DNA of 22,971 nucleotides, from IMG/VR virus record IMGVR_UViG_3300032173_000053, positions 1 to 22,971 of that record; one strand, 5' to 3'. A model generated the notes under the pieces. It ran no database searches, had not been told where the DNA came from, and saw only the letters and a list, made by a program, of their open reading frames with translations. Shown here piece by piece: positions 2,962 to 20,650 of the stretch. Every line of letters begins with the position of its first letter. Position 1 is the stretch's first letter. This DNA comes from a virus. Position numbers and translations under genes: made by a program.

Positions 2962-3209
2962 CGCTTGACGTACCAGAATTGATGAGCTTGCTTGAGGATG
3001 TCCTCAGTAAGCTCAAAGCCGCACATATCGCCAACAACTGAATCTATGCCGCATATCGGACAGATCGCAGTTTTGTCATTGTCGGTATAGTCTTTAATTT
3101 CCGTCACGTTGAAAATCTTCAAACAGTGAAAACAACCGGCGTTAGTGGATTGCTCCACTAACTGCCGGTTTTTCATTGCTAACGTGGGGAATTGTGTGAT
3201 TCCTGTCAT
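2958..3209 (-). CDS. Small zinc-ribbon protein
   Basis: 83 residues. Four cysteines in two pairs, C26-x2-C29 (CFHC) and C50-x2-C53 (CPIC), form a zinc ribbon. The body (EIKDYTDNDKTAICPICGIDSVVGD) resembles a widespread family of small bacterial proteins often labelled only as cytoplasmic protein, with no established function. The start ATG shares one base with the portal stop (TAATG), and GAGG lies just upstream in the portal's last codons, so translation is coupled to the portal. Codons about 12-26 also encode a long perfect hairpin (see terminator at 3134-3173). The first 20 residues are not typical of the family and could be a recent N-terminal extension. Confidence 0.8.
   Translation of the reverse strand: MTGITQFPTLAMKNRQLVEQSTNAGCFHCLKIFNVTEIKDYTDNDKTAICPICGIDSVVGDMCGFELTEDILKQAHQFWYVKR
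3134..3173 (+). terminator. Rho-independent terminator embedded in the convergent zinc-ribbon gene
   Basis: AACCGGC (3134-3140) pairs with GCCGGTT (3164-3170) and GTTAGTGGA (3141-3149) pairs with TCCACTAAC (3154-3162). This leaves one bulged T and a TTGC loop. TTTTT (3169-3173) follows on the plus strand. It lies 170 bases after the glycosyltransferase stop and would halt plus-strand transcripts before they run antisense into the portal gene. Confidence 0.75.
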
Positions 3210-5749
3210 TAACCCTCGTCGCCTACGCTATAGTCGATGTCTTCTCGGTCCTGCTCGGCTTCGTAGTCTTGAATCTCAAGATCATACTTCTTGATGTCTT
3301 CTCCATCTGGCTCTGGAATATTCGCACCTTCAGGTGCCTTCGAGCCTGGATCAGCATCGGGCGTTTCATCTGCCCCGGAAGCCGTTGCCGTTGGAGGAGG
3401 AGCGCCCGCCCCACCGCCTGCTGCCGCCATTGGATCGCCGCCCGCCATTGGATCAGGCGACATGCCCGGTCCACCCGGTTCGGCTCCAAGTTCTCCCTGA
3501 CCACCGCCTGCATCTGCCCCAGGAATGCCGACGCCCAATAGCTGTGGATTCTGCGCCAATACTTGCAGTTTGAGGTCTTCTAGTTTTTGTAGCTTCAGAC
3601 GTGCCAACATTTCGTCAGCTTCGTCTTCAGAAAACTTCAATATCTTTGTGACAATATCATAGTCTGCCATAAGCTGACCACTCTTTAACGTGCCAGCATT
3701 AGTATAGCGGGCTGTCACCACTTCCGCACGAGATAGTTCCCGCCAATCAGAAGGGGCCGTCATCTTGATTTTTAAGTCTTGATAGCTTTCTTCAGGATAC
3801 CCTCGCAAATGCAAGTGGCGTTCTGCCATTTCCAGGATTCCATCCTCGAAGTGACTTTGTAGCCGCTCAATCATGCGAGCGAACTTAACGTCTTGAGCAG
3901 ACAAAGTAATTCTTGTTGCACCTGGGTCTTCATTGTTGAAATAGTTCTTCGGGAAATTCAAGCTGGTTAACAACTTGTTTCTGAAGTACACTGCGTCATC
4001 AATTTCACCCAAGTTTTCGGCACCCGGCAAAGTATCAATACGAGTATTGCTATTTGGTCGAATTGGTAGCCAATAGTCTTCGTCCTGAGCCGGTGGTTGC
4101 CAGCGTTCTTCTACAGAATTCGCCCCAGGTGTTCCACGACCACTTGTAACCTTACGCTTGCGGAATTGATCCTTTAGTCGATCAATGAAGGCTTCAGCCT
4201 TGAATGGAGGAAGCTGTCCAACGTCAATGTAGAACACACGACGTTCTGGCGCACGGGTGAGTCGATAGACCACCATTGCATCTTCCATCAATCTCAAGCT
4301 GTGTGCCGGGCCACGGGCTGGTTCGATCAAGCTCTGTCCGTAAGGATAGAAAGTCTTGCGATCATCTCCAATTCGGAAGTGAACGATCTGACTCGGAGCG
4401 AACCGAATGGCTGTCGTCTGATTCAATTCCATTTCATTCTGGCCGGTGACTGGTCCTCGCACGATGGCCTGATAATCGGGGCCTTCTTTGCTTTGCTGGT
4501 ACTCAATCATCTTGCCCTTCACCGTCTCGATGCGATACATCGTTTCGGGAGGCAATGGCATGGCCCGGTAAATGCCCTCTTTGGGATTATCCGGGTTGAT
4601 TACCATTTCAACGAACCAATCCCCAGCGATGCACAGGTTCTTAAACCATGTCCAACCCTGGCGGTTCATGTTGAGCATTTTGCGATGCAACAGCAGGAAT
4701 TCTATTTCTTCACGAATTTCATCGTTGGCTGTAAGCACCTTGAAGATATTGCCATCTTCGTCTTTTTGGCAATTGTGTAGGATGACAGAATCTGTGGCGA
4801 AGCACTTGTGGCCTTCGACTGAAATGTCGTAGACATCTTGTTCTGGACCCTCTTCAATGCCTATGATTCGGCGACGATCCTCATGCTTGTACAGAGTTCT
4901 GATCTCTGCTGGCGTGAAACCTTCCTTTTTGACCCAACCATCTATTGATGACCAATCGAAATCCAACTTCTTGGCAATTTGACGGGTGGTTAGTCCACCA
5001 CCAATCATGCGAATAACCCGATTTACTTTTTCATATGCAGGGTTGCTTTTGCCAGTCTTCCAGTCGTCAGCGAATTGACGTTCGCTGATCCAGCCTTTCG
5101 TGAAGGTGAATAGGCGAGGAAATTGTTTGTGTTTAAGTTCAGATGCCGCAGATAACCGATAGAATGGCATCAGTTCGTCGCCGAACCGAAGTTCTCCAGT
5201 TTCCACCCATGTCCCATCTTTCTTTAGAACACGGTGATCCGACGTAGCAGTGAACTTAGTGCCATTGTCCATGACAATGGTTATAGTTTTGGCTCGCTTC
5301 ACGAGTCGTGGGGCGAAAGCCCAACCCAGGTTGTAGTCTTTTTTCTGGGCGTCATAGCAGTAAACCAAAAATCGTTCTTCGGCTCTCTTCTCTGCTAACT
5401 CTTTTATGGTAGTGAACCCGAACGGCGTAGCGATCTTAGTGTCACCGGCAACGCAGGCTTCGTCAGCGAAGACCGTCATTGCCATTTCGATTTCCGGGAC
5501 ATTACGCAGACGCTCATACTCTTTATACCGCATGGAGCGGTTGGATAGAGTCGTCGTGTCGATCATGTCGTTGGTTTGACGATAGCTTGTTTGGCCACCC
5601 GGTCCACCACCGCTTTGAAAATCTGTCCCTAGAGCTTCTGGTTGTGAAATACCAGCAGTCCCGAAGTTCTTAGGGTCTTTACGAGCCGACAGAGGGTCTT
5701 TCTCTGTAGCGTATGTGAACAATTTGAAAAAGTCTGACCAAAGTGGCAT
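3209..5749 (-). CDS. Portal protein (T4 gp20 type) interrupted by an intein
   Basis: 846 residues; removing the 228-residue intein (99-326) leaves a 618-residue portal. T4 gp20 is about 520 residues, and the excess is mainly a Gly/Pro/Ala-rich acidic tail over the last 115 residues. The portal forms the dodecameric ring at one capsid vertex through which the terminase pumps DNA and to which the neck attaches. Family signs include MRYKEYERLRNVPEIEMAM before the intein, and WFKNLCIAGDWFVEM, YPYGQSLIEPARG, RAPERRVFYIDVG and LTSLNFPKNYFN after it. The start has AGAGGA with a 7-base spacer. Portal function depends on splicing, because the intein splits a conserved DEA motif region. The zinc-ribbon gene follows with a TAATG overlap. 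Confidence 0.93.
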   Translation of the reverse strand: MPLWSDFFKLFTYATEKDPLSARKDPKNFGTAGISQPEALGTDFQSGGGPGGQTSYRQTNDMIDTTTLSNRSMRYKEYERLRNVPEIEMAMTVFADEACVAGDTKIATPFGFTTIKELAEKRAEERFLVYCYDAQKKDYNLGWAFAPRLVKRAKTITIVMDNGTKFTATSDHRVLKKDGTWVETGELRFGDELMPFYRLSAASELKHKQFPRLFTFTKGWISERQFADDWKTGKSNPAYEKVNRVIRMIGGGLTTRQIAKKLDFDWSSIDGWVKKEGFTPAEIRTLYKHEDRRRIIGIEEGPEQDVYDISVEGHKCFATDSVILHNCQKDEDGNIFKVLTANDEIREEIEFLLLHRKMLNMNRQGWTWFKNLCIAGDWFVEMVINPDNPKEGIYRAMPLPPETMYRIETVKGKMIEYQQSKEGPDYQAIVRGPVTGQNEMELNQTTAIRFAPSQIVHFRIGDDRKTFYPYGQSLIEPARGPAHSLRLMEDAMVVYRLTRAPERRVFYIDVGQLPPFKAEAFIDRLKDQFRKRKVTSGRGTPGANSVEERWQPPAQDEDYWLPIRPNSNTRIDTLPGAENLGEIDDAVYFRNKLLTSLNFPKNYFNNEDPGATRITLSAQDVKFARMIERLQSHFEDGILEMAERHLHLRGYPEESYQDLKIKMTAPSDWRELSRAEVVTARYTNAGTLKSGQLMADYDIVTKILKFSEDEADEMLARLKLQKLEDLKLQVLAQNPQLLGVGIPGADAGGGQGELGAEPGGPGMSPDPMAGGDPMAAAGGGAGAPPPTATASGADETPDADPGSKAPEGANIPEPDGEDIKKYDLEIQDYEAEQDREDIDYSVGDEG
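4772..5455 (-). mobile_element. Intein in portal protein, lacking a recognisable homing endonuclease
   Basis: Portal residues 99-326, 228 residues. The N-terminal block starts at Cys99 (CVAGDTKIATPFG). Block B is TATSDHRVL (168-175). Block F is VYDISVEGHKCFATD (307-320). Block G is VILHN, with penultimate His325 and terminal Asn326, followed by Cys327 as the +1 nucleophile, so all canonical splicing residues are present. Between blocks B and F an insert of about 130 residues carries no LAGLIDADG or HNH motif but does carry a helix-turn-helix-like stretch (LTTRQIAKKLDFDWSSIDGW, 253-272). This may be the DNA-binding remnant of a lost endonuclease. Confidence 0.92.
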
Positions 5750-15127: not shown

Positions 15128-15661
15128 TCACTTCTTGAGAATTTCATTGAGCAATTCTGCCGCATATTTGGCATTGCTCAATAGTTTATTTGAAAAGCGA
15201 TTGTCGGTCAACGGAACTTTGAACAACATATTTCTTTTCACAATATCCGGGACGGTATCCGGTTCCATCTGATCTTCCGGCAGTTCTACTTCGGCAACTG
15301 CCATATACGTTTGATTTTTGTAGTCTTTGAAGAAGTCCAGTTCCCAGGTATTTTTTCCGTGTTTGATAATATACCGAATCTTTTCCAACTGGTTCAAGGC
15401 CAACAACCAAAGATCATTGAAGTCTCTTTGGTCGAGTTTGGTTTCCACTTCAACGCACCGCCCAGCGGTATTGACCTTGAGCGTGAAATAGTAGGACTCT
15501 AAACCGTTGGATTTCTTGACTGACTTTCGGATGCGTGTGGTGATTCCTCGTGTGGCAATGAGGTATCCCTGAGAGATCGAATACTGCTCAGAAGAAAGCT
15601 CATTGACGGCCATCTCGCACTCGGATCGAATGATAAACTTACGTTCGTTTTCCGTGGGAAT
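15128..15661 (-). CDS. CYTH-domain triphosphatase with apparent ATT start
   Basis: 177 residues if it starts at ATT (15661-15659). The first ATG (15613) would remove the catalytic N-terminal strand. AAAAAAGGAG lies 6 bases before the ATT, and the extended protein begins PTENERKFII, restoring the ExExK signature (E4, E6, K8) of CYTH/triphosphate-tunnel enzymes. No ATG, GTG or TTG exists in frame upstream before a stop. Other tunnel motifs follow: TRIRK, FTLK, WELDFF and AEVELPE. Such enzymes hydrolyse triphosphates (thiamine triphosphate, inorganic triphosphate, RNA 5' ends) or make cyclic AMP. The first 23 bases overlap the end of the HNH gene. Either ATT is a rare start or the insertion damaged the true start. 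Confidence 0.75.
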   Translation of the reverse strand: MPTENERKFIIRSECEMAVNELSSEQYSISQGYLIATRGITTRIRKSVKKSNGLESYYFTLKVNTAGRCVEVETKLDQRDFNDLWLLALNQLEKIRYIIKHGKNTWELDFFKDYKNQTYMAVAEVELPEDQMEPDTVPDIVKRNMLFKVPLTDNRFSNKLLSNAKYAAELLNEILKK

Positions 15662-16310
15662 GGGATTCTCCTTTTTTGTTTTTGATTTGTTTAATTACTA
15701 CAGACAAAAGAAGCATGTCTTCGTATGAAAAGAAATGATTTTTGACGGTATTACACTGGTGACAACAGGGAACAACATTTGTCAACAAATAGCCAACTTC
15801 ATTATTTTTTCTGTCTAATCCACATCCTGTTGGATTTAGTTCTCCATCACAGTAGTGACAGTTTTGAGCAATTAAATTCTTGTAATTTTCTAATGGAATC
15901 TCCCAAACTTCTCCTGATCTTGCTGCCCGTCTTTCTGAGTGTTTCCATCTAGTGTAAGCGTCTTGTGATTTTGTTCTCACTCTTTTTAATTCGCATTTTT
16001 TGCAATACCGCCGCCGAATATCTTTCGCTGGCGAATGCAAATTAAACTCACCTATTGGTTGTAGTTCTTTGCAATCTTTGCAAATCCTATTGCCAGACTC
16101 GCTGGCAGATTTTATGTAACATTTTCTACTACAGTGTAGAACAATTTCTGATCTGGCTTTTGATGTAGCAAATTCCTTGTTGCAAAAATTGCATGTTAAT
16201 TTAACCTGATTTATTCGCTTATAAGCATTGTAACATTTCATGTTACAAAACTTCTTTGAAGTCGAGATTGAATCGCCACAGTAATTGCATGTATTATTCA
16301 TGCAATACAT
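15639..16310 (-). CDS. HNH homing endonuclease
   Basis: 223 residues (or 220 from a second ATG at 16301; neither has a good ribosome site). The N-terminal half has several CxxC zinc-finger pairs (CNYCG, CNFCN, CKDCK, CKKCE), a common DNA-binding layout of phage homing enzymes. The C-terminal part holds the HNH nuclease: CHYCDGELNPTGCGLDRKNN then NVVPCCHQCNTVKN, with paired CxxC cysteines framing the betabetaalpha-metal core. The gene is more AT-rich than its neighbours, a sign of separate origin. It lies between the bacterioferritin-like and CYTH genes, and its end overlaps the CYTH ribosome site and start, so it is likely an inserted free-standing homing gene. Confidence 0.88.
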   Translation of the reverse strand: MYCMNNTCNYCGDSISTSKKFCNMKCYNAYKRINQVKLTCNFCNKEFATSKARSEIVLHCSRKCYIKSASESGNRICKDCKELQPIGEFNLHSPAKDIRRRYCKKCELKRVRTKSQDAYTRWKHSERRAARSGEVWEIPLENYKNLIAQNCHYCDGELNPTGCGLDRKNNEVGYLLTNVVPCCHQCNTVKNHFFSYEDMLLLSVVIKQIKNKKGESHSHGKRT

Positions 16311-16350
16311 AGAGTGCTGACTCAGAATTTCAAACCAATGTTTTTAATTT

Positions 16351-16782
16351 TCAGCAACCACGCACGATTTGTTTGAAATGATCCAGGTCTTCACGACTGG
16401 CTTGGACCTGTCCTTCGAGGAAGATTTCAAGCCATGTTCCATCAACGCCGCCCAATTCGTCGGCATCCTTCATTCGCTGCACATAGTTTTTGACGACTTC
16501 CTCTTCCATCATAACAGCATATTCCATGATGTCTTTAGGGTCGGTGTATTTTCCGAAATCATTTGACTCAAAAGTGGCAACGCCACCCAAACCAATGATA
16601 ACGTCTGAAAATTGTGAAACATGCAGCATTTCTGAAGCTGCTTCTTTGAGAAACAACTCCTTGTATTCAGCACAATGCAGGCCGGTCACGGCGCTCGCAT
16701 GATACAAGTAAAAACGTAAATGCTTCCATTCATTTTTGAGATCGTCATTCAACATCTGAATCATTTTGTCTTTGTTCATCAT
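16351..16782 (-). CDS. Bacterioferritin-like di-iron protein
   Basis: 143 residues; the start is at 16782 or the adjacent ATG at 16779, which is better spaced from AAGGA. A four-helix ferritin-like pattern carries di-iron ligands in order: E18, E51-x2-H54, E93/E94, and E131 with H135 (EDLDH). The numbering of E18, E51 and H54 equals that of bacterioferritin, and Met52, its heme ligand position, is also Met here. The protein is about 15 residues shorter than bacterioferritin and lacks the fifth helix. It may oxidise or store iron, or protect DNA against peroxide. The ATG directly follows the M28 stop, so the two are co-translated. Confidence 0.8.
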   Translation of the reverse strand: MMNKDKMIQMLNDDLKNEWKHLRFYLYHASAVTGLHCAEYKELFLKEAASEMLHVSQFSDVIIGLGGVATFESNDFGKYTDPKDIMEYAVMMEEEVVKNYVQRMKDADELGGVDGTWLEIFLEGQVQASREDLDHFKQIVRGC

Positions 16783-18004: not shown

Positions 18005-19876
18005 ATGGATCAAGCCGTATTTTTCAAGAGCAAACGTGACTCTGTTTGGCGAGGCAAATACAAAACCCTCGAAGAATTCTACAAGAGTGGTGGGAAGATA
18101 CTTAAACGAGGGGAGGGCAAAAAGAGCCGTCTTCAATATGATCCCGACTACTACACTCTCGACAAGTACGAACTTGAAATTGATCCTGATGAACCGCTGG
18201 AAAACTTCGAGACTTACGATCCATCCCGTCGTCAAAAAGAAATCATCAAGTGTTATAACAGCTTCGCTTATTTCTGCCACAAATATGTGAAGATTCTTCA
18301 CCCTATGGACGGTTTGATTCCGTTCGTATTATACAACTATCAGCGGAAGGTTATCCAGGAATACGAAAACCACCGATTTAACATCATCAGCAAGTTTCGT
18401 CAAGGGGGACTGACGACAGTGACTTTGCTGTGGGGCATGTGGCGCTGCATGTTCCAACTCGACCAACAGATCATGATTTTGGGACGAACCGACCGTGATG
18501 CCACGGATATTGGCATGATGGTGGATCGTTCTATTGAGAACTTCCCAGAATGGTTGAAGCCAAAGAAAGACGGTAAGTGGAATGACCACATGAAGATGTT
18601 CACGGACACCGGGTCAGCCTTAAAGTTCCACTCTCCTGAAGCTGCTCGTGGTAAGTCCGTTACATTCTTGATCGTGGACGAAGCTGCGTTCATTGATGAC
18701 ATGGACAAGCACTGGAAAGCCATGTGGCCTATTCTTTCGACGGGTGGTGGTTGCACCCTCGTATCGACGGTCAATGGTCTTGGTAACTGGTATGAACAAA
18801 CCTACCACGAAGCACAAGAAAAGCAAAACCGCTTCAACATCATCGACTTGGATTATTGGGAACATCCCGACTACAACGACGATGAGTGGGTTAAAGAACA
18901 AAAGGCACAACTCGGCGAGAAGGGCTTCTTGCAGGAAGTGTTGCGTGAGTTCCTTGGCTCCGGTGATACTTACTTCTCCGCTAAGGTCATCACGCAACTC
19001 ACAGAGCAAACCAGAAACAATTACCCTAGCCGCAAGTTGTTCCCGAAATGGGTCAACAAGTCAGGCCGTATTGCTGTATTGGAAAGCGAAGACCACAACA
19101 AGGGTGCTATGTGGGTCTGGAAAGAGCCAATTGATGGCCACGAATACATCATTGGCGCTGACGCTGCCGAAGGCCAGGGCAACAACAATGACAATTGCTG
19201 TTTTCAGGTAATTGACACAGCAACTTTGGAACAAGTGGCCGAGTTTTACTCCAATATCATTGTGCCTCACGAATTCGCTCAGGTGCTTAATGAAGTGGGC
19301 ATTTATTACAACAATGCTCTGATTGTTGTCGAAAACATGGGTCCAGGTGGGGCTGTTCTAAGCAACCTTCAATTCACCTTGTTTTACGAGAGCCTTTATT
19401 ACGAAAGCCTTAAATCGGCCAACGTAAAACCGGGCATCAAAATTGGTCAAGTAAACCGATCTCTATATTTGGAATCTCTCCAAAATCGGCTATTGAACCA
19501 AACTGTTCGTATTAACAGTATGCGATTCGTTATGGAACTCCAGACTTTTGAGTACAACCCTGTCACTCGCAAGGCTGAAGCTCAGAAAGGCAAGCACGAC
19601 GACGCTATTATGTCTATGTGTATGGCCCTTTATGTTCGTGATTCCATGTTGCGAGACATACCTATGGGTGCAGAGATTCCGAAAGAAGTAACGGCCACGC
19701 TAAAAGCTCAGGTATACGAAGAAATCAAACGTGAATTGATGGAAGGAAGACCAGAAGATTTCCTCATGGACGATGAAATAGACCTTTTATCGCCCGACAA
19801 AGATACTGTTATGCCCGGTGTTATTTTCAATATCGAGCGTCGGAACGATAGACTTTTGCGTGAATTCGGATGGTAA
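18005..19876 (+). CDS. Large terminase subunit (T4 gp17 type)
   Basis: 623 residues, AAAAGGA upstream. The ATPase domain has the Walker A region SKFRQGGLTT (129-138), in which the lysine sits at the start (K130) rather than before the Thr, a variant known from other terminases. Walker B is TFLIVDEAAF (220-229; D225, E226), and the coupling motif is STVNG (254-258). The RNase H-like nuclease domain follows, with acidic residues D385 (IIGADAAEG), E443 (VVENMGPGG) and D532/D533 (KHDDAI). The enzyme cuts concatemeric DNA and pumps it through the portal encoded at 3209-5749. No intein is present. A homing endonuclease gene follows 24 bases downstream. Confidence 0.96.
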   Translation: MDQAVFFKSKRDSVWRGKYKTLEEFYKSGGKILKRGEGKKSRLQYDPDYYTLDKYELEIDPDEPLENFETYDPSRRQKEIIKCYNSFAYFCHKYVKILHPMDGLIPFVLYNYQRKVIQEYENHRFNIISKFRQGGLTTVTLLWGMWRCMFQLDQQIMILGRTDRDATDIGMMVDRSIENFPEWLKPKKDGKWNDHMKMFTDTGSALKFHSPEAARGKSVTFLIVDEAAFIDDMDKHWKAMWPILSTGGGCTLVSTVNGLGNWYEQTYHEAQEKQNRFNIIDLDYWEHPDYNDDEWVKEQKAQLGEKGFLQEVLREFLGSGDTYFSAKVITQLTEQTRNNYPSRKLFPKWVNKSGRIAVLESEDHNKGAMWVWKEPIDGHEYIIGADAAEGQGNNNDNCCFQVIDTATLEQVAEFYSNIIVPHEFAQVLNEVGIYYNNALIVVENMGPGGAVLSNLQFTLFYESLYYESLKSANVKPGIKIGQVNRSLYLESLQNRLLNQTVRINSMRFVMELQTFEYNPVTRKAEAQKGKHDDAIMSMCMALYVRDSMLRDIPMGAEIPKEVTATLKAQVYEEIKRELMEGRPEDFLMDDEIDLLSPDKDTVMPGVIFNIERRNDRLLREFGW

Positions 19877-19880
19877 TGAC

Positions 19881-19895
19881 TACATACACTGGAGG
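19881..19895 (+). promoter_or_regulatory. TACATAC box and ribosome site before the homing endonuclease
   Basis: TACATAC (19881-19887) is followed at once by TGGAGG (19890-19895) and the ATG at 19901. If the box were a T4-like late promoter, transcription would begin inside the ribosome site, so the geometry needs explaining. Confidence 0.35.
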
Positions 19896-19900
19896 TTATT

Positions 19901-20650
19901 ATGGACATTACCAAAGATCAACTAGAGCAAGAATATCAGTCAGGTTTGTCGATGAGTCAATTAGCTGAAAAATATGGAACTAGCGTTGGAACAATTTTTC
20001 GCCACATGAAAAAATTTGGTTTACAATCTCGCCCGCCAAGTCAGGCTATGAAGGGTAAATCTTGCTCACCGGAAGTAGCTGCCAAGATTTCTGCGGCAAA
20101 TAAAGGAAAGAAAAAAAGCGAGGAGCATCGGCGAAAACTAAGTGAAAGTAAAAAGGGAATTAGACATCCGAATTACGGTAAAAAACGGGTGCATGGCAAA
20201 AGGATATGGCATCAACAACCTGATGGCAATTGGGTCGCTATGAGAAGTAGTTGGGAGACTGCATATGCTTCTTGGCTCGACAAACAGGGAGTTGCCTGGG
20301 AGTATGAATCCAAAACTTATATTCTCTCTGATGGCTCTGCTTATACGCCTGATTTTTGGCTGATCGAGATAAAAAAGCATGTTGAGGTTAAAGGGTGGAT
20401 GCGAGCTAAGTGGCAAAAAAAATACGAGCGATTTTGTGTAGATCATCCCGAAGCTGACATTATTTTCGCTGACCGTGTTTATCTCGAATCTCTTGGAATT
20501 GACCTCAAGCAATTATTTGTTAGCACCAGACCGAAGTTTGCATGTGAACAATGCGGCATTGAATTTCACAGAATATATAAAACACAGCGTATGTGTTCGA
20601 CAGAATGTCGAAATAGATACATCGCCTGTAATCGAAAGAGGCGAAAGTAA
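19901..20650 (+). CDS. PD-(D/E)XK homing endonuclease with NUMOD3 and zinc finger
   Basis: 249 residues. An N-terminal helix-turn-helix (LSMSQLAEKYGTSVGTIFRH, 16-35) is followed by NUMOD3-like basic repeats (SAANKGKKKSEEHRRKL and SESKKGIRHPNYGKK, 64-95), DNA-binding modules typical of homing enzymes. The nuclease core has E119 (SSWETAY), P150-D151 (YTPDFWL) and E162-V-K164 (VEVKGW), a PD-(D/E)XK active site like those of phage homing enzymes. A four-Cys finger (CEQC and CSTEC) is near the C-terminus. It is a free-standing gene wedged between the terminase and the next virion-type gene, whose ATG touches its stop codon. The likely target is the homologous terminase-region DNA of a competing phage. 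Confidence 0.85.
   Translation: MDITKDQLEQEYQSGLSMSQLAEKYGTSVGTIFRHMKKFGLQSRPPSQAMKGKSCSPEVAAKISAANKGKKKSEEHRRKLSESKKGIRHPNYGKKRVHGKRIWHQQPDGNWVAMRSSWETAYASWLDKQGVAWEYESKTYILSDGSAYTPDFWLIEIKKHVEVKGWMRAKWQKKYERFCVDHPEADIIFADRVYLESLGIDLKQLFVSTRPKFACEQCGIEFHRIYKTQRMCSTECRNRYIACNRKRRK

Follow-up and report, generated by a model that had tools for sequence, protein, structure and literature searches.

An apparent AUU start codon in a divergent CYTH/TTM gene of huge phages, overlapped by a probable homing endonuclease gene

The window, by which we mean the whole stretch of 22,971 nucleotides analysed here (IMG/VR record IMGVR_UViG_3300032173_000053, positions 1 to 22,971), carries on its minus strand a ferritin-like gene, an HNH endonuclease gene and an ORF for a CYTH-type protein, in this order of transcription. 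Related loci are cited below by L numbers. The features on which the argument turns are as follows.

15128..15661, minus strand: CYTH/triphosphate tunnel enzyme ORF, 177 codons when read from ATT (translation, AlphaFold, Foldseek, NE1496 profile match)
15659..15661, minus strand: proposed start codon ATT (place of the ATG in the empty-site relatives L004 and L005; no canonical alternative)
15668..15673, minus strand: Shine-Dalgarno sequence AAGGAG, inside the HNH coding sequence (sequence; duplex with the 16S tail, -8.7 kcal/mol)
15638..15652, minus strand: ENERK codons holding the ExExK motif (E4, E6 and K8 invariant across 18 aligned relatives)
15611..15613, minus strand: first in-frame ATG, codon 17, beyond the motif
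15639..16310, minus strand: HNH (endonuclease VII-like) gene, probable homing endonuclease (phrog_1035, E 1.3e-17; absent in L004 and L005)
15653..16357, no strand assigned: segment replacing 28 nt (ACTCTAAAAAGGGAAAATAATGCCGACC) of the empty site (comparison with L004 and L005)
16351..16782, minus strand: ferritin-like gene, the usual upstream neighbour of CYTH (PF00210, E 1.3e-14; upstream of CYTH in 24 loci)

Read from ATT, the CYTH product begins IPTENERKFIIR. The in-frame codons from the preceding stop up to ATT are TAA TTA AAC AAA TCA AAA ACA AAA AAG GAG AAT CCC, with no ATG, GTG or TTG across these 12 codons, and the first canonical codon of the frame is the ATG at codon 17. The N-terminal ExExK is part of the product only when translation begins at or before codon 4, so that a start at codon 17 would cost the protein this motif, which is the hallmark of the CYTH superfamily (PMC8233210). 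An earlier note on this DNA, made from the letters alone, had named ATT at 15661 as the only in-frame start that keeps the motif, with the first ATG deleting it, a strong ribosome site 6 bases before the ATT, and the HNH gene ending 23 bases inside the CYTH start. All of this stands: AAGGAG occupies 15673-15668, leaving a spacing of 6 nt to ATT, and the TAA of the HNH ORF (16310-15639) lies 23 nt inside the CYTH ORF. Predicted RNA structure at the CYTH start was the same as that of shuffled sequence. The same ATT is present in two more contigs of the window's phage, IMGVR_UViG_3300031746_000464 (2 differences from the window in 8,501 shared bases) and IMGVR_UViG_3300032053_000551 (2 differences in 7,594 shared bases), which show no differences from each other over 10.2 kb. 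Because these two are mutually identical and each lies two positions away from the window, they jointly stand for at least one assembly distinct from that of the window, and an assembly error private to the window is an unlikely source of the ATT.

The CYTH/TTM identity that the earlier note had assigned to the product was borne out by several approaches. Besides the motif, the AlphaFold model of the window protein (mean pLDDT 92.4) has the beta-barrel tunnel fold, its best Foldseek matches in the PDB being 2fbl, 3typ (NE1496), AtTTM3 and other TTMs, and the inorganic triphosphatase NE1496 is hit by a profile built from four sequences (E 3e-5). Neither Pfam nor NCBIfam names the window protein, for which PF01928 gives no hit, and one of the 18 relatives matches PF01928 (E 0.007). 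By fold and motif, then, the protein is a divergent member of the CYTH/TTM family, with triphosphatase activity predicted.

We compared the start of this gene across a non-redundant set of 44 members made up of the window, viral contigs, one named phage record and one bacterial bin contig; a DNA search of named phages gave no match. The relatives align a Met or start-like codon at the exact position of the window's ATT, which puts it two to four codons ahead of ExExK. Of the 44 members, six have ATT immediately before Pro-2 (the window, L040, L041, L045, L049 and L211), L061 has ATC, L075 has CTG, several have TTG or GTG and the others ATG, and Pro-2/Thr-3 is retained throughout the ATT-bearing clade. 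No canonical in-frame start lies upstream in the window, L040, L041, L045, L049 or L061, and the frame of L041 reaches a canonical codon only at codon 120 of its 180. L211 counts as a probable ATT case because its frame also holds an ATG 14 codons further up, within the reading frame of ferritin. At least three of the ATT members (L041, L045, L049), and the probable ATT case L211, have no HNH gene: in L041 and L211 the CYTH ORF follows close behind the ferritin stop, in L045 it comes after a longer spacer, and in L049 it is preceded by a full AAGGAGGTG. On the tree the start states of CYTH change many times, at least five separate changes to ATT being needed. These alignments are best read as indicating that CYTH has come to use AUU, AUC and CUG starts repeatedly in this group of huge phages. 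Given such repeated movement of the same gene to AUU or other near-unusable starts in related huge viruses, the ATT of the window looks like a genuine weak start and not like a sequencing error.

How exceptional this is was judged against the genes around the CYTH loci. The 12 contigs behind the CYTH loci, the window included, hold 1,123 genes with an alignable relative start; the counts come from a stricter screen, looser genome-wide screens being dominated by shadow ORFs, and its list (45 in all) was sorted by eye, the remainder being judged shadow-ORF or misaligned cases. Seven CYTH genes (five ATT, one ATC, one CTG) lack a canonical start at or near the aligned place, as do three convincing cases among the remaining genes of the 12 contigs, which number about 1,111. 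Set against each other, 8/44 CYTH genes and 3/1,111 others give a Fisher p of about 4e-10 and an odds ratio of ~80, where the rows are related and the p-value is a guide only, and where the 12 contigs, but not the 44-member set, were chosen partly by their CYTH start. For the ferritin neighbour, all 24 readable loci offer a canonical start close to the aligned place (0 of 24 non-canonical). The three convincing cases outside CYTH are an ATT-start glutamine amidotransferase (L082:5769-6908) and an ATT-start FmdB-type zinc ribbon (L085:14505-14837), both in the L041 phage, and a gene of the L049 phage that is related to the window's portal gene and has an apparent ATC start, AGAGGTGCAAAAATCGCATGG, after AGAGGTGCAAAA (L138, contig G003:372360-374927, plus strand). 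In the amidotransferase the catalytic Cys directly follows the start (Cys-2), and since a Met must come off to expose this residue, the enzyme class suggests that AUU is read there by initiator tRNA as Met. The window's own portal gene (3209-5749, minus strand) is of T4 type and contains an intein (PF14890, residues 113-326).

The relatives' CYTH ORFs are under purifying selection, and the insertion in the window is itself recent. The sister pair L049 (ATT) and L061 (ATC) has a dN of 0.15 and a dS of 1.3, like ATG pairs; L041 and L043 have 0.20 and 1.7; and the CYTH genes of the window and L004 are separated by 13 synonymous and two non-synonymous codon changes. The Shine-Dalgarno duplex with the 16S tail is on average stronger in seven ATT, ATC and CTG members (-8.4 kcal/mol) than in the ATG members (-6.0 kcal/mol; p 0.04, small sample). 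In Staphylococcus aureus, AUU and AUA genes likewise combine a weak codon with a strong Shine-Dalgarno sequence, with ~10% of AUG output (PMC13009471).

That the HNH gene is an insertion, as the earlier note had it, is confirmed by its absence from the close relatives L004 and L005, whose flanks are ~94-96% identical to those of the window. Pfam gave no match for this HNH gene. The empty site in these two reads GTGCGTGGACTCTAAAAAGGGAAAATAATGCCGACCGAAAACGAACG, and the filled site of the window reads GTGCGTGGTTGCTGA, followed by the HNH gene and then AAAAAAGGAGAATCCCATTCCCACGGAAAACGAACG; the right edge of the replaced segment is fuzzy, GAAAACGAACG being common to both sides of the comparison. 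The comparison with HNH-free homologues that the earlier note had proposed places an ATG in L004 and L005 exactly where the window has its ATT. Within CYTH, nt 3, 6 and 9 distinguish the window from L004 and the next 134 nt are free of mismatches, a pattern suggestive of the boundary of a replaced tract. Presence of the HNH gene is polymorphic at this one site: it is found in the window and L040, and not in L004, L005 or L042. The HNH-free L008 reads ATGCCCACGG, after which almost the whole CYTH gene is missing through an internal deletion; in L007 and L008, at about 3970-4110, CYTH consists of ATGCCCACGGAA running directly into the final ~30 codons. A second segment of the window, 19835-20632, is missing from L004, L005 and L007, and the window ORF at 19901-20650, just after the terminase ORF, is of NUMOD3 HNH type. 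A search for more close HNH relatives to fix the ends of the element gave, beyond the window's own phage, L040 alone, itself found via CYTH.

The locus L040 lies on a contig of higher GC content, and its HNH gene, likewise placed between ferritin and CYTH, is clearly homologous. There, the resident start ATGCCGACCGAAAACGAACG survives upstream of the HNH gene (L040 685-704) and runs into a stop within a few codons, while downstream of the HNH gene stands ATTCCCACTGAAAACGAACG, followed by the rest of CYTH. The two copies of the start differ at third codon positions only, ATG/ATT included; the window has no such remnant of an old start. We read this arrangement best as an HNH unit that brings along a recoded CYTH start with ATT, presumably as a flank carried in homing. 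The supposition of the earlier note that the insertion replaced or mutated an original ATG thus needs to be divided: the ATG of L004 and L005 speaks for a former ATG at this place, and ATT is also found where no HNH gene is present (L041, L045, L049 and probably L211). Damage to the resident codon as the way in which the insertion produced the ATT fits less well, because the 3' end of the insert brings its own Shine-Dalgarno sequence and recoded first codons, most clearly in L040, and import of the ATT with the insert is more likely than a damaged ATG.

Taking these observations together, we consider it likely that AUU is a working, weak start of CYTH that reached phages of ATG type along with the sequence flanking a homing-type HNH gene on its 3' side. 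The import is supported by the ATT of both HNH-bearing lineages against the ATG of their nearest insert-free relatives (L004 and L005 for the window; L042 for L040); the old ATG and the recoded ATT that flank the HNH gene in L040, together with the tract edge in the window, support it further without proving it. Alternatively, the window and L040 could each have acquired the ATT on its own, through mutation or remaking of the ATG at the junction and without any import, AUU still serving as start. The window differs from the ATGCCCACGG allele of L008 by a single G to T, start codons change often in the CYTH family, and, since L008 has this allele without an HNH gene, codons 2 and 3 need not accompany the insert and by themselves do not prove import. 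We nevertheless judge this course of events rather improbable, in view of the coincidence of ATT with both HNH carriers and of ATG with both nearest empty relatives, and of the fact that in L040 it is a second, recoded copy of the start, and not a mutated first one, that has the ATT. Somewhat more doubtful to us is a destruction of the ATG by the HNH insertion that would have left CYTH silent or nearly so, as a young pseudogene in which decay of the ORF is yet to set in. The recency of the insertion and the ATG in the empty relatives would suit this, and the gene appears dispensable given that L007 and L008 have lost most of it and keep a remnant, so the window copy could be silent; the strong Shine-Dalgarno sequence at the right distance from ATT, the intact ORF with its mostly synonymous changes relative to L004, and the existence of old insert-free ATT/ATC members under purifying selection (L049/L061) all speak against silence.

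Two further possibilities would deprive the ATT of any role as a start. CYTH might be made by frameshifting from the HNH or ferritin frame, or from the ACG at codon 3, considering that the frame is open for 12 codons before ATT with an A-rich run within it and that ACG is a near-cognate codon. We regard this as very unlikely: the register is wrong for a fusion in the window, which would need +1, and fusion is impossible at a locus such as L049, whose CYTH gene is not entered by any long ORF; a start at ACG would put the Shine-Dalgarno sequence at a spacing of 12 nt where the 6 nt to ATT fits; and the retention of Pro-2/Thr-3 across the ATT-bearing clade opposes both variants. Least probable of all would be an intron whose splicing restores an upstream ATG, as might be imagined from L040, where the upstream ATGCCGACCGAAAACGAACG would join AAAATTT in frame; neither the window nor L040 has an intron match in Rfam, and the window is without any upstream copy of the gene start.

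Returning to AUU as an imported but working start, we propose that the 30S subunit binds AAGGAG in the tail of the HNH gene and initiates at AUU with initiator tRNA, a step that we consider well supported. By analogy with other organisms, CYTH output from AUU would be low relative to AUG, and AUU, AUC and CUG starts are probably kept because little of the CYTH enzyme is wanted. The 3' side of the mobile HNH unit would contain the Shine-Dalgarno sequence and the recoded first codons (ATT CCC AC-), presumably derived from an AUU-type phage, and these would have replaced the resident Shine-Dalgarno sequence and ATG in the window's phage; homing as the route of transfer and the identity of the donor are what we infer from the comparison of sites. 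More speculatively, the recoding might shield the filled site from the endonuclease, and IF3 might control the CYTH start. A larger scenario, in which the weak start is a selected translational switch that ties output to IF3 or to further conditions of initiation in the infected cell, and in which homing HNH elements spread the AUU allele from phage to phage by way of its recoded first codons, is one that we entertain with considerable reserve. The AUU phage L041 encodes its own full-length IF3 (L087:9285-9812, TIGR00168, E 2.8e-48) as well as bS21 elsewhere in the contig, and has two further AUU-start genes, the amidotransferase and zinc ribbon genes mentioned above. IF3 as a common trait of AUU phages was dismissed, the gene being found in the L041 contig alone among the contigs searched, several of which are fragments. 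Decoding of AUU by a phage-encoded initiator tRNA of matching anticodon was likewise dismissed, for in tRNA scans the Met tRNAs of the AUU contigs all have CAT and the window has none. The same phage as L049 has a CTA-anticodon tRNA, called as Pyl, at L128:10512-10586, a possible amber suppressor.

To our knowledge, AUU starts are documented for few bacterial genes only, and none was found described for phages in the literature searched, coverage of which was incomplete. AUU starts as such being already known, what would be new here is the recurrence of non-canonical AUU starts in one phage gene family and, at one site, their link to a mobile HNH gene. AUU, AUC or CUG is used in 8/44 sampled CYTH members, and gene callers limited to ATG, GTG and TTG would shorten these proteins and thereby remove the active-site motif. 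The locus further lends itself to testing whether a mobile endonuclease gene can alter its neighbour's expression by start-codon replacement.

Among known systems, the infC gene of Escherichia coli, encoding IF3, has an AUU start subject to IF3 autocontrol (PMC5472188), and pcnB is a second AUU gene according to a citation in PMC13009471. The phage gene shares with both the AUU start and the expectation of low output, and the analogy to infC drawn in the earlier note is fair as regards the start codon; the function of infC is unrelated, however, and the start codon of the phage CYTH gene varies between close relatives. S. aureus cvfC1 and ccpN, starting with AUU and AUA (PMC13009471), and Streptomyces sigR, with a GUC start repressed by IF3 (PMC5472188), are alike in pairing a non-canonical start with a strong or extended Shine-Dalgarno sequence, but these are bacterial genes, none of which is tied to a mobile endonuclease gene. 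On the protein side, NE1496 (neuTTM; PDB 2fbl/3typ) is the best match by both profile and fold and has its ExExK at the extreme N-terminus, at ~28% identity to a phage protein whose activity is predicted only. On the side of the mobile element, the HNH gene resembles free-standing phage HNH/endonuclease VII-like homing genes (T4 mob/seg) in lying between genes, in being missing from close relatives and in its overlap with the next gene (4-29 nt), and T4 homing genes are known to embed expression signals for the gene that follows (PMC2988022). Six other endonuclease VII-like HNH genes of named phages end 4-29 nt inside the next gene, which in every case keeps its ATG; the window differs from these six loci in that the next gene has ATT and recoded first codons.
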